Below, one piece after another: positions 46,779 through 52,642 of a stretch of 64,000 bases of DNA. A program made the position numbers and the translations under genes. The notes beneath the pieces are model-generated. The model was not told where the DNA came from, did no database searches, and worked only from the letters and a program-made list of their open reading frames with translations. Position 1 is the stretch's first letter. Each line of letters opens with the position of its first letter. The stretch is from contig JARRPX010000002.1 of the NCBI GenBank assembly GCA_037382465.1, positions 194,714 to 258,713 on the forward strand, in the 5' to 3' direction. The stretch is from Anaerolineales bacterium. Lineage in GTDB: Bacteria; Chloroflexota; Anaerolineae; Anaerolineales; E44-bin32.

Positions 46779-49457
46779 TCAAGGGGGGCTGGACGATGGA
46801 TCATGCCAAGCGAGCAACGACAACCCGATCGCCTGTGCTCGTACCAGCGGGGCATCTTCCAATATCACCAATACCAGTTGAGCGAAGCCCAGATCATCGA
46901 CGTTCGAACACACAAACCAGCTCAAGCTCTCCTCAGCCGTTCCTGCGATCGCTTGAGCCGTGTATCGAAAGATAGAACCCGAATCATCCGTAAGCGCCGT
47001 GCGTATTCTTTCACTTATTTCGGGAGCAATCGCTTCATCCCGTCCAGCGAGAGAATCGACTTCCTGCCAGCGGCCGTTCATATCTTTCGTCGCGGCTACG
47101 ACACGCAACGCCGGGAGATCGCCGTCTGCAAGCAAGGCCGCAAATGCCCGTGCGACCTGCAGCGGCGTGACGGTTGTGTCGCCCTGCCCAACGGCCGCCA
47201 TTTGCCAATCGCTTTCGCTTGGGCCGACCACGGCGGGCGGCACAGGAACGGTCTCGAGGCGGATCGAAGGCGGTTGAGTAAAACCGAAAGCCTGCAGCAT
47301 ACCGACGAGGTTTTTCGCTTCGAAATCTGCCCCCAATTCGGTGAATGCGCCGGGGCATCCAGCGCGCAGCGCCTGTGCATAATCAACTTCCTCATTATTG
47401 GACAAGTCCATCAAACAACGCAGCTCCGTCCCGTCCACAGAAACGGCGGAAGCTGCATTCGATGCTCGATCTTCCAGCCGCACCAACCCAGCCGTTTCTG
47501 ACCAGGCCATGACGAACGGGGCAAACGTCATTCCGGGTTGATAGCTAGCCTGTGTGGCGCGATTCAGCAAGGGCGCCCCTTCCTGGTCGATCAAGGATTG
47601 CCAGTCCGCATCCACACGATTGGGATCGTATGACGGTGACGAGACCATGGCCAGGATGTCTCCGGTCGAAGGATCGAGGATCACGATCGCCCCCGTCTCA
47701 CCTTGCAGCGCTTCCCAGGCTTCACGCTGCAAAGCGCTATCGACCGTCAGACGCACATCCAATCCCGGAGGCGGATATCCCGTAAGCAGCCGGTCCCACC
47801 AGCCGACGGACAGCGGATAACCCTCTTCCCCGCGGAGCACTTTGTCCATCGTTCGTTCGACGCCGGTTTGACCGTAGGCCAGTGAACTGAACCCCGTTAC
47901 GGTCGCAGCCCAGGGCGCCGGATAAACGCGTTCGTACGACCCTTGTTCACCGGTCGACATTGCCAACACCTCACCCGTTCGGTCGACGATTTTCCCGCGC
48001 AGGTTATAAAGTTCGGATACCGTCCTGCGGGGATTGTCCGTACGCGCCGTTAGAAGCGGTGCACGATAAATCGTCCACCACCCAAGCAGAACGGCCAAAC
48101 CCACCCAGGCGGCGGTGATCCAGCCATGAATCGTAAGCAGCGGCCGGGAGAAATTGCCGGCTCCTCCTGAACTATCCGAAAGCAAGAGAAGAAAGGAAAG
48201 CGCAATCAGATTGGTCATCAATGATGAGCCACCGTAGGATACGAAGGGCAGCGTCACGCCGACGAGAGGCAGCATGCGGATATTGCCTCCGACAATCAAG
48301 ATCGTCTGAAAGGCAAAGCCGATCGACAGACCACCGGCAAGAATCACACCGAAAGGTTCTCTGGACCTGGCCGCCACCCGAAATCCTCGAGCCACGAGAA
48401 TTGCGAACAACGCAATCAGACCGAACCCGCCGAGTAAACCCCACTCCTCCACGATGGCCGTAAAGACGAAATCGGAATGAACGACAGGGACGAAAGCCGG
48501 AGAACCGATCCCAGGGCCTCGTCCGAGTACACCGCCGGATGCGACGGCAATGAGTGCCTGTACCAACTGATAAGAACCGCCGCTCGGATCGCTCCATGGA
48601 TCGATCCAGGCTTGAATACGATTCTGTACAGATGCAGAAAAGCCAAATCCAATCAATCCTCCGGCCAATATGATCAGGGCTGCAGCGACGAGGATGCGTC
48701 GTCTGCCCGTTACCAGGTACAGCAGGGCAGCGAGAATGACCAGATAGAGCGTCCCTGCACCTATGTCCCCCTGCAAGACGAGCAGCGCGACCGACAATCC
48801 CCACACGATGATCAACGGGGCATATGCAATCGGCCAGAATTTCGAACGTTCCCCCCAGCGGAACGCCATTCGATCCGCCAGATACGAGGCGAAAAACGAG
48901 ATCAACAGCAGCCGCAGTGGCTCGGAAGGTTGAAGATAGATGCCGCAGCATCCCAACCAGAGGCGCGGTTCGACGCTGGACGGATTGGTGCCCAACAGGA
49001 GCGTCAGGGCAGTCAGGGCAACGCCCACGATCAGCCACAAGTAACGATATCGCCGCAGCCAACTCAGGTCCGCAGGCAAACGGAACACGATCAGCATCGC
49101 CCCCACACCCAAAACAAACCAACCCATCTGCCGCATCCCGAAACCTGGAGCGAGCCGCCAGATGGTCAATACACCCCAACCGCTGAGCAGCAGCCCGACG
49201 GGCAGGATGAAGGGATCGCGAAGAGGCCGCAGCCGCTGCAGCGTACGGCGTAAAGCAACCGCCGCGATCAGCCACACCGGTAAGACGGAAAAGTGCTGCC
49301 AGCGCGAACCAAGCGCTTCCGCTGTACGCGTTTTTACCGCGGGCGCCAGGTATAGAGCCAACGATGTCAGGCAGAGGAAAGCGAAAGCGAGACCCAAAAG
49401 CAGGGCCTCGCGGCGATCGTTTTCCTCGACCTGATCACGGAAGATAGCGCTCGACAA
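46779..49457 (-). CDS. SEDS polymerase (RodA/FtsW-like) fused to an inactivated PBP transpeptidase domain
   Basis: 892 residues from TTG 49455-49457 (GAGGAGG ten bases upstream). Residues 1 to about 430 are a SEDS glycosyltransferase with about 10 membrane segments, including the conserved IDPWSDPSGGSYQLVQAL (Asp) and VVHSDFVFTAIVEEWGLLGG. One further membrane segment (about 440-460) leads to a class-B PBP-like region from about 490 (LRGKIVDRTGEVLA). The three transpeptidase motifs are lost: the SXXK position reads PGMTFAPF (Met and Ala), the SXN position reads GCP, and KTG reads IAG. The rest of the fold is kept. It should polymerise glycan but not cross-link. It overlaps mtnP by 23 bases. 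Confidence 0.88.
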   Translation of the reverse strand: MSSAIFRDQVEENDRREALLLGLAFAFLCLTSLALYLAPAVKTRTAEALGSRWQHFSVLPVWLIAAVALRRTLQRLRPLRDPFILPVGLLLSGWGVLTIWRLAPGFGMRQMGWFVLGVGAMLIVFRLPADLSWLRRYRYLWLIVGVALTALTLLLGTNPSSVEPRLWLGCCGIYLQPSEPLRLLLISFFASYLADRMAFRWGERSKFWPIAYAPLIIVWGLSVALLVLQGDIGAGTLYLVILAALLYLVTGRRRILVAAALIILAGGLIGFGFSASVQNRIQAWIDPWSDPSGGSYQLVQALIAVASGGVLGRGPGIGSPAFVPVVHSDFVFTAIVEEWGLLGGFGLIALFAILVARGFRVAARSREPFGVILAGGLSIGFAFQTILIVGGNIRMLPLVGVTLPFVSYGGSSLMTNLIALSFLLLLSDSSGGAGNFSRPLLTIHGWITAAWVGLAVLLGWWTIYRAPLLTARTDNPRRTVSELYNLRGKIVDRTGEVLAMSTGEQGSYERVYPAPWAATVTGFSSLAYGQTGVERTMDKVLRGEEGYPLSVGWWDRLLTGYPPPGLDVRLTVDSALQREAWEALQGETGAIVILDPSTGDILAMVSSPSYDPNRVDADWQSLIDQEGAPLLNRATQASYQPGMTFAPFVMAWSETAGLVRLEDRASNAASAVSVDGTELRCLMDLSNNEEVDYAQALRAGCPGAFTELGADFEAKNLVGMLQAFGFTQPPSIRLETVPVPPAVVGPSESDWQMAAVGQGDTTVTPLQVARAFAALLADGDLPALRVVAATKDMNGRWQEVDSLAGRDEAIAPEISERIRTALTDDSGSIFRYTAQAIAGTAEESLSWFVCSNVDDLGFAQLVLVILEDAPLVRAQAIGLSLLAWHDPSSSPP

Positions 49458-50301
49458 GAATGCCCAGCCTCCTCGCTGCTTCGGGATCGAGATGTTCTGG
49501 ATCAGTGAGAATGGTGTCCTTCAACGCGTCCGCACAATCACATGCACGTGAACCATCCAATTCATCAATGAGAATGTTGATCGCGGCCTGTGCAAGCTCT
49601 GTATTCTCACGCAGCGTACGTACGATTCGCTCAACACTCACCGGCTCCTCGGAGGTATGCCATACGTCGTAATCCGTAACGTGCGCCATCACGGCATAGC
49701 ACATCTCAGCTTCCCGCGCTAAAAATGCTTCCGGACACGTCGTCATGCCGATAATGGACATCCCCCAGCCACGATATGTATTCGATTCCGCCTTCGTCGA
49801 AAACCGCGGTCCCGGGATCGTAATGTAGGTTCCACCGCGATGTACATGGCCACCGGCCTCCTCGACACTCGCAGCCAGCGTCGCTGATAAATCCGCACAA
49901 AAAGGCTCAGCAGCGCTGATATGGGCCACAATGCCGCGGTCAAAAAAGGAACGATGACGTCCCTCGGTCCGGTCGAATAACTGGTCGGGCACTACGATTT
50001 CGCCGGGCGCGTAATCTTCACGCAAGGAGCCGCATGCACTTACGGCAAGGATGCGACCCACACCCATCATTTTCATCGCATAGATGTTCGCACGATAATT
50101 CACCGCTGTCGGTGTATACACGTGCCCGATTCCGTGCCGTGCCAGAAATACAATCCGCTTGCCAGCCCGCTCTCCGACGAACAACCGGGAAGACGGCCTT
50201 CCAAAAGGCGTATCAAGCTCACGATACTCCCCATTTTCGAGGCCATCCATGGCATACAAACCGGATCCGCCGATCACTCCGAGTACTGGCGCAGCAGGCA
50301 T
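49435..50301 (-). CDS. mtnP: S-methyl-5'-thioadenosine phosphorylase
   Basis: 288 residues from ATG 50299-50301; GGAGG sits four bases upstream, better than the ATG 12 bases earlier. The purine nucleoside phosphorylase family II pattern is clear: GVIGGSGLYAMDGL, FLARHGIGHVYTPTAVNYRANI (parts: LARHGIGHVYTPTAV), and MTTCPEAFLAREAEMCYA. It cleaves methylthioadenosine (or 5'-deoxyadenosine) with phosphate to adenine and a ribose-1-phosphate, for methionine salvage. It lies between the fha genes and the SEDS-PBP fusion. Confidence 0.93.
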   Translation of the reverse strand: MPAAPVLGVIGGSGLYAMDGLENGEYRELDTPFGRPSSRLFVGERAGKRIVFLARHGIGHVYTPTAVNYRANIYAMKMMGVGRILAVSACGSLREDYAPGEIVVPDQLFDRTEGRHRSFFDRGIVAHISAAEPFCADLSATLAASVEEAGGHVHRGGTYITIPGPRFSTKAESNTYRGWGMSIIGMTTCPEAFLAREAEMCYAVMAHVTDYDVWHTSEEPVSVERIVRTLRENTELAQAAINILIDELDGSRACDCADALKDTILTDPEHLDPEAARRLGILVERYLP

Positions 50302-50456
50302 GCTTCCTCCCATGAGATATCAAAGCGATATATTAACATACCTGGAATGAAGTGTCATTGAGCGCTTAAGAGAGTCGAGACATGGAAATAAGTGTCTGTG
50401 GAACCACCCCCGATTCCGTAGTGTTTCCAGGAAGCAGCTGTCTGGCGGTGGTGCAC

Positions 50457-50903
50457 TCAGTCTTGCACAGGCTCCGATTCAGACGGGTTCTTTTCAAATC
50501 GTGCAGTGACTTTTCCAAGCTGGATTCGATCGCCATCCGCCAACGCGAGCGGTTCGTTTACGGGGATGTCATTGACCTTCGTGCCATTTCTTGAGCCCAA
50601 ATCCTCCAGCAGCCATTGGCCTTTGTAGAACGCCAGTCTTGCATGCCGCGTAGAAACGGTTTCATCGACGATCGGGATCGTGTTCTCCGCAGCGCGTCCG
50701 ATGATATTCTCTTCCTGCAATTTGAATTTGCTGCATTCATCCCCCATTCCTTCGAGGTCGAGATATGCAAGTGGGATGCGCAGCGCATACGTACTGGCAG
50801 CCCGCAGATCGCGCCAGAGTACGAGAATCACCCCTGCGATGAACAAGTACAGAATCAACGCTGCGAGAAATCGCAGCACCAGGAACAGGACATCGAGACT
50901 CAC
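50457..50903 (-). CDS. Membrane-anchored FHA-domain protein (FhaB-like)
   Basis: 148 residues. One N-terminal membrane segment (VLFLVLRFLAALILYLFIAGVILV, shown in part: LAALILYLFIAGVILVL), then a cytoplasmic FHA domain: NIIGRAAENTIPI, VSTRHARLAFY, EDLGSRNGTKVND, ALADGDRIQLG. FHA domains bind phosphothreonine. The size and layout match FhaB (FipA) of Actinobacteria. Its start overlaps the stop of the upstream FhaA-like gene (50900-50903). Confidence 0.9.
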   Translation of the reverse strand: MSLDVLFLVLRFLAALILYLFIAGVILVLWRDLRAASTYALRIPLAYLDLEGMGDECSKFKLQEENIIGRAAENTIPIVDETVSTRHARLAFYKGQWLLEDLGSRNGTKVNDIPVNEPLALADGDRIQLGKVTARFEKNPSESEPVQD

Positions 50904-51721
50904 CGTTCCGACATATCCTTTTTGAGAGTCGTTCTGGTTGGTTGATCCCCGGCCGGCAGAGGAGGAAATCGAGGATGGTACGACGGAGTCTCATCTGGTG
51001 GTCCGTTGGGGTCTTCGCCATATACAAGAAGCGTACTGGCAATGGTGATCACGTCCCCCGGCTGCAGCACATGCTGCTTCGCCTTACGATCGTTCACACG
51101 CGTCCCGGACGTCGATCCCAGGTCGAAGAGAACGAAACGAGAATCTCGTAAACGCAGTTGGGCATGAGTTCGAGATACGTGCGGATCATCCAAAATGAGT
51201 TGATTGTCGAGACGTCGTCCGATGTTTATGACCGGGCGATCCAATGGGAAGTGGCGGGAACCACTGACGATAAGGTAGGCACCGATCGGCATCTCCCCTT
51301 GTTCTTGGCTGAGATCTTGAGACATTCCTTGTGTGGCTTCGATCAACGTTTCGCTGTGCCAGGCGACGACGCGCACTTCGTGCTCGGCCAGGGTTGGATC
51401 CGCCGCAATGGTAATATGCGGCTCGCAGGAAAGAAAATAGCCGCTCTCGCGCACAATCGACAGCAAACCCGCTGCAAGCTCATCCCGTAAATCGGGAATT
51501 TTCTCCAGCAGCATCTCCACGGCAGCCTGATTGAACGTCAAGGCATATCGATCCGGTGCGAGTAATTTTTCCCCCTCTCCATTCCGCACACCATCACTCA
51601 TCGCCCGCGCCAATTGCCCCGCCAGCATCGCAGGTTGAACTTGTGCGCCGAGCAATCGACTCAACGCACCCTCGACGAGACCTTCTATTCGCTCCTCTAG
51701 CCTGCTAAAATGCTCTTTCAT
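50900..51721 (-). CDS. FhaA-like protein (DUF3662 + FHA), copy 2
   Basis: 273 residues from ATG 51719-51721; the longer open frame runs back into the neighbouring gene and is rejected. The N-terminal DUF3662 domain starts EERIEGLVEGALSRLLGAQV and includes RYALTFNQ and RVVAWHSETL. The C-terminal FHA domain has NIGRRLDNQLILDD, VSRTHAQLRLRD, DLGSTSGTRVND and QPGDVITIA. FhaA proteins bind phosphorylated partners at cell-wall synthesis sites. It is a tandem paralogue of the next gene upstream (35 bases apart). Confidence 0.9.
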   Translation of the reverse strand: MKEHFSRLEERIEGLVEGALSRLLGAQVQPAMLAGQLARAMSDGVRNGEGEKLLAPDRYALTFNQAAVEMLLEKIPDLRDELAAGLLSIVRESGYFLSCEPHITIAADPTLAEHEVRVVAWHSETLIEATQGMSQDLSQEQGEMPIGAYLIVSGSRHFPLDRPVINIGRRLDNQLILDDPHVSRTHAQLRLRDSRFVLFDLGSTSGTRVNDRKAKQHVLQPGDVITIASTLLVYGEDPNGPPDETPSYHPRFPPLPAGDQPTRTTLKKDMSER

Positions 51722-51755
51722 ACGCTCATTCTTCAGTTGGGTGTGAATCTGGATT

Positions 51756-52607
51756 TCACTCGTCCGGCTTACCCGTCGGTGTGGTATCGCCTTCGAGTTC
51801 CGATTTCTTAATATAGAGTGGGGTTTCCGCATCACGTTCATCAACTGGTTTCGCGGGAGGGCTGTACGGTGGAGTGACCGCGGGTGGAACTTCCGCCCCT
51901 TCTGCATAGACCAACTCGACATCGGCCAAAGTAATCACGTCTCCGGCGAACAAAGTCTGTTTTTCGACCTTGCGTCCATTAACCTTGACGCCCGCCATCG
52001 AATCGAGATCGACGATCTGATATCGACATTCATGAGCTTCTATCTGCGCATGTTTTCGTGAAACATGGTGGCCGTCCAGCACGAGATCGTTATCGACGCG
52101 GCGGCCAATCGTGATTACCGGCTTGCTGAGTGGAAAATGCCTGCGGCCTTCAACAACGAGGAAAGCATTTCTTCTGGGTAGCTCAGACCTTACTACGGAC
52201 AGATTTCTCGGATCGGGCGTGATCTCCATCGGATCGGCACTGTGCCATGCGATCACCCGTATCTCGCCCTTCTTCAGCGTTGGGTCTGTCGCCAGCGTGA
52301 TGTGCGGCTCTCTGGTAAACGAGAAGTTGCATTCGTTCAACGCCTTCTCAAGGTTCGCGGCCAAATCATCTTGGATTTCAGGCTTGACGGATTGTAACTC
52401 ACCCGTTTCGTGAGGATGAATGGTCAATGTAAACTGATCGGGAGCAAAGCGCTGCGAATCCCGATCGACTTTGACCGTAGCCAGCACTTCTGTTGCGATC
52501 TGATGAGAAAGCGTCGAAACCGAAAAATCGCGCCATGGCAAAAGCTTTACGCTGTTGTGTATCGCCAGTTGGATTGTCTTTGCAAGTGTTTGAAGTTGGT
52601 CATCCAT
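51756..52607 (-). CDS. FhaA-like protein (DUF3662 + FHA), copy 1
   Basis: 283 residues from ATG 52605-52607. The alternative GTG at 52625 overlaps the -10 box and is rejected. DUF3662 part: TLAKTIQLAIHNSVKLLPW, then RFAPDQFTLTIHPHE and RVIAWHSADPMEI. FHA part: TIGRRVDNDLVLDGHH, VSRKHAQIEA, VDLDSMAGVKVNGRKV, FAGDVITLADVEL. It shares its plan with the following gene, so it arose by tandem duplication. It begins a minus-strand run that includes fhaA', fhaB, mtnP and the SEDS fusion, and probably has a leaderless mRNA. Confidence 0.9.
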   Translation of the reverse strand: MDDQLQTLAKTIQLAIHNSVKLLPWRDFSVSTLSHQIATEVLATVKVDRDSQRFAPDQFTLTIHPHETGELQSVKPEIQDDLAANLEKALNECNFSFTREPHITLATDPTLKKGEIRVIAWHSADPMEITPDPRNLSVVRSELPRRNAFLVVEGRRHFPLSKPVITIGRRVDNDLVLDGHHVSRKHAQIEAHECRYQIVDLDSMAGVKVNGRKVEKQTLFAGDVITLADVELVYAEGAEVPPAVTPPYSPPAKPVDERDAETPLYIKKSELEGDTTPTGKPDE

Positions 52608-52613
52608 ATTCAA

Positions 52614-52642
52614 ATTATAAGCCACTGCTCAAAATCAATAAA
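52614..52642 (-). promoter_or_regulatory. Promoter of the fhaA-like operon, predicted leaderless
   Basis: On the minus strand TATAAT (complement of 52614-52619) lies exactly six bases before the ATG. A weak -35 (TTTATT, complement of 52637-52642) is 17 bp upstream. The transcript should start at or next to the A of the start codon. Confidence 0.6.

Follow-up and report, generated by a model that had tools for sequence, protein, structure and literature searches.

The possible activation of SEDS polymerases by class-B penicillin-binding proteins (PBPs), independently of cross-linking, has been addressed with laboratory mutants. Among the closest described systems, the M. tuberculosis RodA-PbpA pair (PbpA: PDB 3UN7/3UPN/3LO7) belongs to the actinobacterial fhaA-fhaB-pstP-rodA-pbpA-pknAB locus, in which FhaA, FhaB, a SEDS protein and a PbpA-type PBP are encoded, as they are at the locus analysed here; the actinobacterial pstP-rodA-pbpA locus has been described (PMC6554272). 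The SEDS-PBP fusions of Coriobacteriia, for which transpeptidase structures are available (Atopobium parvulum 4JBF/4N1X, Eggerthella lenta 4MNR), share with our protein the domain order on one chain, the family as judged from sequence and fold, and the FHA neighbours. Besides, catalytically inactive forms of B. subtilis PBP2b and C. difficile SpoVD (S311A) retain partial function, presumably via activation of the SEDS partner (PMC12713402), while in E. coli the membrane helix of PBP2 suffices to stimulate RodA, and natural SEDS-PBP fusions as such have been mentioned (PMC10449877 for both). The stimulation of RodA by this helix, together with the partial function of inactive class-B PBPs, makes it plausible that a class-B PBP can act as an activator or scaffold. 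A natural pseudo-PBP joined to a SEDS protein is reported below; no prior description of one was found in our literature search of open-licence papers.

In the window, i.e., the whole stretch of 64,000 nucleotides analysed, the open reading frame at 46779-49457 encodes a RodA-type SEDS polymerase joined to a PbpA-like class-B PBP in which the SxxK, SxN and KTG motifs are all gone, as confirmed by the analyses below. The protein is organised as follows:

46779..49457, minus strand: SEDS / pseudo-PbpA fusion protein, 892 aa, TTG start, no internal stops
48177..49139, minus strand: SEDS (FtsW/RodA/SpoVE) glycosyltransferase domain, residues 107-427 (PF01098)
48471..48473, minus strand: codon of D329 (HSDF), aligned to the RodA catalytic Asp (E. 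coli D262)
48066..48158, minus strand: eleventh membrane helix, the former PBP anchor, residues 434-464 (AlphaFold2 helix)
47754..47999, minus strand: pedestal / PbpA dimerisation domain, residues 487-568 (PF21922)
46812..47693, minus strand: catalytically dead transpeptidase domain, residues 589-882 (PF00905; Foldseek match to PbpA)

Pfam searches on the 892-aa frame located FTSW_RODA_SPOVE (PF01098) at residues 107-427 (E 3e-67), PBP_dimer_2 (PF21922) at residues 487-568 (E 9e-14) and Transpeptidase (PF00905) at residues 589-824 (E 4e-26). An AlphaFold2 model built from 32 alignment rows reached a mean pLDDT of 89.9 and a pTM of 0.84, and a Foldseek search against the PDB returned M. tuberculosis PbpA as the best match, followed by the transpeptidase domains of Atopobium parvulum and Eggerthella lenta. 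The dead domain is thus predicted by the model to fold like M. tuberculosis PbpA, and the membrane anchor, pedestal and transpeptidase fold that define a class-B PBP are all present in the fusion. An earlier note, made from the DNA letters, had assigned a SEDS polymerase to the N-terminal half and a class-B PBP fold to the C-terminal half, and these matches bear out both assignments. In the SEDS half, D329, which corresponds to the catalytic Asp of the fourth large periplasmic loop, is invariant in all 144 aligned rows, as is P324; the role of the corresponding E. coli residue, D262, is described in PMC10449877. Judging from these residues, the SEDS half probably retains polymerase (lipid II) activity.

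The three former transpeptidase motifs map as follows:

47520..47531, minus strand: former SxxK, M643-T-F-A646, placed by alignments
47352..47360, minus strand: former SxN, G700-C701-P702, placed by alignments
46941..46949, minus strand: former KTG in the register of the earlier note, I837-A838-G839; the register is ambiguous and Lys occurs in none

In a pairwise alignment with M. tuberculosis PbpA, YPPGSTFK pairs with YQPGMTFA and KSCNTAF with AGCPGAF. Profile-profile alignment with intact relatives (419 columns, E 2e-116) likewise places M643 at the serine and A646 at the lysine of SxxK, and G700-C701-P702 at SxN. The replacements M-T-F-A and G-C-P proposed in the earlier note were therefore recovered by both alignments, and the coordinates that it gave for the two codons, 47529-47531 (M) and 47520-47522 (A), are exact. 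Its reading of KTG as I-A-G stood in part: no alignment register of the fusion protein holds the lysine, KTGT being absent, but I-A-G is one of two possible placements, as two alignments give either IAG (837-839) or Y832-T-A and the profile alignment has a gap immediately before the site.

Orthologues were collected by searching 60 relatives, 200 genomes from the same phylum and a named genome collection; they locate the window in or close to the order Anaerolineales. About 106 were compared, nearly all from the class Anaerolineae (Chloroflexota) and mostly from metagenome assemblies, with Levilinea saccharolytica (L089) and Leptolinea sp. HRD-7 among the cultured members. Tabulating the motifs in these related genomes, as the earlier note had suggested, showed all three to be lost throughout: among 62 full-length and 44 deletion-bearing orthologues, none has S643 together with K646, none has S700 together with N702 and none has the KTG lysine. 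Since 33 intact relatives show 94-100% conservation at these columns, such a loss is not due to chance. A sequencing or alignment artefact was ruled out, as the same losses occur in independent genomes across a class. The claim of a dead transpeptidase beside an intact SEDS active site hence extends to the class. As the pseudo-PBP has no Ser nucleophile, covalent penicillin binding is predicted to be absent, so that a protein annotated as "penicillin-binding" in these bacteria should not bind penicillin.

In a tree of the SEDS part, 46 of the 47 catalysis-lost representatives fall into one clade (support 100/98, the bootstrap of this careful tree being rough and the quick trees approximate). 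The trees were built without long rows such as the long-branch paralogue L057, and one of them included a Bacillota outgroup. L161 (G068), a fusion from a different lineage of this phylum, has lost all three motifs too and lies in an unresolved region beside intact Chloroflexota; constraining all lost rows together, L161 included, was not rejected by the AU test (p-AU 0.87). This row, not clearly grouped, represents either a second loss or a deep branch. Intact members outside the clade comprise the Coriobacteriia fusions, a Thermoleophilia fusion, split pairs of Bacillota and, among other Chloroflexota, one fused pair and several split pairs; L169 belongs to the class Anaerolineae, yet its pair is split and active. 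Fused proteins with intact motifs, which the earlier note had named as evidence against its reading, were found only outside the clade (the Coriobacteriia, a single Thermoleophilia and a further Chloroflexota lineage) and so do not apply to the orthologues. The position of the Coriobacteriia fusions outside the Anaerolineae clade also indicates that these fusions probably arose separately. No biochemistry or genetics was found for any clade member.

The fusion gene is preceded by the following genes:

49435..50313, minus strand: phosphorylase-superfamily gene, MTAP-like (PF01048; synteny)
50457..50903, minus strand: FhaB-like FHA protein (PF00498)
50900..51922, minus strand: FhaA-like protein, FhaA_N + FHA (PF12401, PF00498)
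51756..52625, minus strand: second FhaA-like protein (PF12401, PF00498)

Adjacency to fhaA and fhaB, expected of a rodA-pbpA pair of the fha locus, was thus observed; FHA neighbours recur in most relatives with enough flank, and the order FhaA-FhaB-(MTAP)-SEDS-PBP is conserved. The MTAP-like gene lies directly upstream of the SEDS gene, a conserved position in the family, and in the window it overlaps the SEDS start by 23 bases. It separates the FHA genes from the SEDS gene at nearly all Anaerolineae loci, but no such gene was detected at the intact loci of Coriobacteriia. Two tandem FhaA-type genes, as at 51756-52625 and 50900-51922, are shared by many genomes of this family, a single one being found in most of the order's other genomes. 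Downstream of the fusion gene lie Ffh, ribosomal protein S16 and RimM. The same genome encodes FtsW and an intact FtsI in the division cluster with FtsZ, RodA and an intact PBP2 beside MreB and MreC, a class-B PBP of the MecA_N type and two further proteins whose PBP motifs are intact. Cross-linking enzymes are therefore not lacking, in line with the proposal of the earlier note that cross-linking takes place elsewhere. As a side observation, the rodA beside PBP2/MreBC in L057 (10336-11430 and 10439-11008) seems split over two frames, through either a real frameshift or a sequencing error.

Selection on the two halves was compared in close pairs, where dN/dS was about 0.04-0.18 for the SEDS part and mostly 0.07-0.3 for the dead domain, with one pair at 0.53. 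The dead domain is therefore under constraint, though usually weaker than that of the SEDS part, and by these sequence comparisons purifying selection on it persists; a pseudogene was ruled out by the open frames and dN/dS. In the pedestal, R487, G488, G522, E534, L541 and G543 are conserved equally in active and dead forms. In contrast, R472 and D474 at the membrane junction, which belong to an RTDNPR motif (residues 472-477) following the eleventh membrane helix, are conserved in pseudo forms only; N475 of this motif is also conserved in pseudo forms.

The architecture itself is variable. At least eight changes between fused and split states were counted on the trees, so that fusion as such is a labile trait. 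A separate adjacent gene encodes the dead PBP in L101, L104, L106, L109, L131, L047, L048 and L051-L053, which indicates that covalent attachment is not essential; the idea in the earlier note that attachment is the point of the arrangement was consequently not borne out. The fusion is common, yet some lineages have SEDS and dead PBP split. Within the clade, moreover, the whole SxN block is deleted in several lineages (proteins of about 800-860 aa), with at least 8-12 changes of this state on the trees; the structure predicted for a block-deleted form is still confident (pLDDT 87.7). In L120 (5994-7476), L054 and L055 (first SEDS ORF) the protein stops at or just past what used to be the membrane helix of the PBP, and no PBP ORF follows; a transpeptidase-domain search listed five to six places in each of these genomes, of which the ones read retain their motifs intact. 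The SEDS gene of L050 lacks an adjacent PBP, and in genus g3 of the same family the SEDS-PBP gene is absent from the archease-FhaA-MTAP-Ffh-RpsP-RimM block of a single-contig genome (L213, G022:C1:1648000-1660000). Such repeated cutting down, the helix-only forms and the gene loss in g3 show that the dead domain is not needed everywhere. The role as an activator only, proposed in the earlier note, may hold, but the reduction to the membrane helix or even to nothing in some lineages would equally suit a scaffold that is losing importance.

These patterns could be read in several ways. The dead domain might be mainly a docking or sensing module, binding peptidoglycan or contacting other elongation proteins, with no activation of the polymerase. 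The folded ectodomain and invariant cysteine pair of the full-length pseudo forms, which a bare activator does not need, speak for this, as do G599, P608 and R633, which lie outside the membrane-proximal part and are still 98-100% conserved. However, the active-site lobe is deleted in many lineages and the whole ectodomain in a few, and conservation is strictest in the pedestal and at the membrane junction, which are expected to touch the SEDS protein; we regard this explanation as unlikely, albeit worth keeping in mind. A new catalytic activity, with the invariant C701 of the old active site as nucleophile, appears barely credible. Indeed, C701 is the central residue of the former SxN and occurs in 62/62 full-length forms, but so is its partner:

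47415..47417, minus strand: codon of C681, which pairs with C701 (47355-47357)

C681 is just as invariant, and both cysteines are missing in 41/41 block-deleted forms. Being kept together and lost together, as for a disulfide, the two residues probably form one; besides, five active rows share the pair, and other lineages drop the region while keeping the protein.

Alternatively, the transpeptidase half could be a slowly decaying relic, dispensable and without present function, carried along by the fusion. The recurrent block deletions, helix-only forms and loss of the whole gene in one genus fit decay, as does a dN/dS usually above that of the SEDS part. This is rather improbable given that dN/dS stays well under 1, that the frame is open in orthologues class-wide and that the split-gene pseudo-PBPs stay beside the SEDS gene although nothing ties them there. 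It could also be proposed that the SEDS half polymerises a substrate other than lipid II, for which reason the cross-linking domain lost its role, and the clade-wide loss of cross-linking in bacteria that have two other SEDS-PBP pairs for the wall would agree with it. Nevertheless, the polymerase residues are identical to those of active relatives and the fha-rodA-pbpA context is unchanged, which makes such a substrate very unlikely.

Taken as a whole, the probable explanation is that the dead PBP serves its SEDS protein as an activator or scaffold, without catalysis, and that other PBPs cross-link. The gene would be orthologous to the rodA-pbpA pair found in the fha locus of actinobacteria. 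The transpeptidase catalytic residues would have been lost in an ancestor of most Anaerolineae, those of the polymerase being retained, and the dead PBP, with its membrane helix, pedestal and pseudo-transpeptidase domain, would still touch the SEDS protein as an allosteric activator or scaffold. Strands made by this polymerase would be cross-linked by the other PBPs of the cell. For these proteins, the activation by the pseudo-PBP and the choice of cross-linking enzymes are inferred. On balance, we lean towards a nearly class-wide natural pseudo-transpeptidase, in which most Anaerolineae would have a third SEDS polymerase with a purely non-catalytic PBP partner, grading from the full-length dead domain to helix-only forms and gene loss. 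If true, the activating role of a class-B PBP would have been separated in nature from its cross-linking role, the clade being a natural test of the class-B PBP partner as helper rather than enzyme, and the truncated natural forms suggest the smallest useful activator.

Compared with known systems, M. tuberculosis PbpA gives the best sequence and fold match to the dead PBP, but its motifs are intact and it forms acyl-enzymes, whereas the Anaerolineae form is fused and has lost all motifs. The Coriobacteriia fusions also keep intact motifs, the Atopobium structures having been solved with beta-lactams, in contrast to the loss in Anaerolineae. The B. subtilis PBP2b mutant and C. difficile SpoVD S311A resemble the present case in fulfilling a class-B PBP role without transpeptidation; however, they are laboratory point mutants, while the loss in Anaerolineae is natural, complete and nearly class-wide. 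Finally, the engineered fusions of E. coli RodA with PBP2 or with its membrane helix link SEDS and PBP covalently, as here, and the minimal form of the helix construct is the one reached by the graded natural truncations of L120, L054 and L055.
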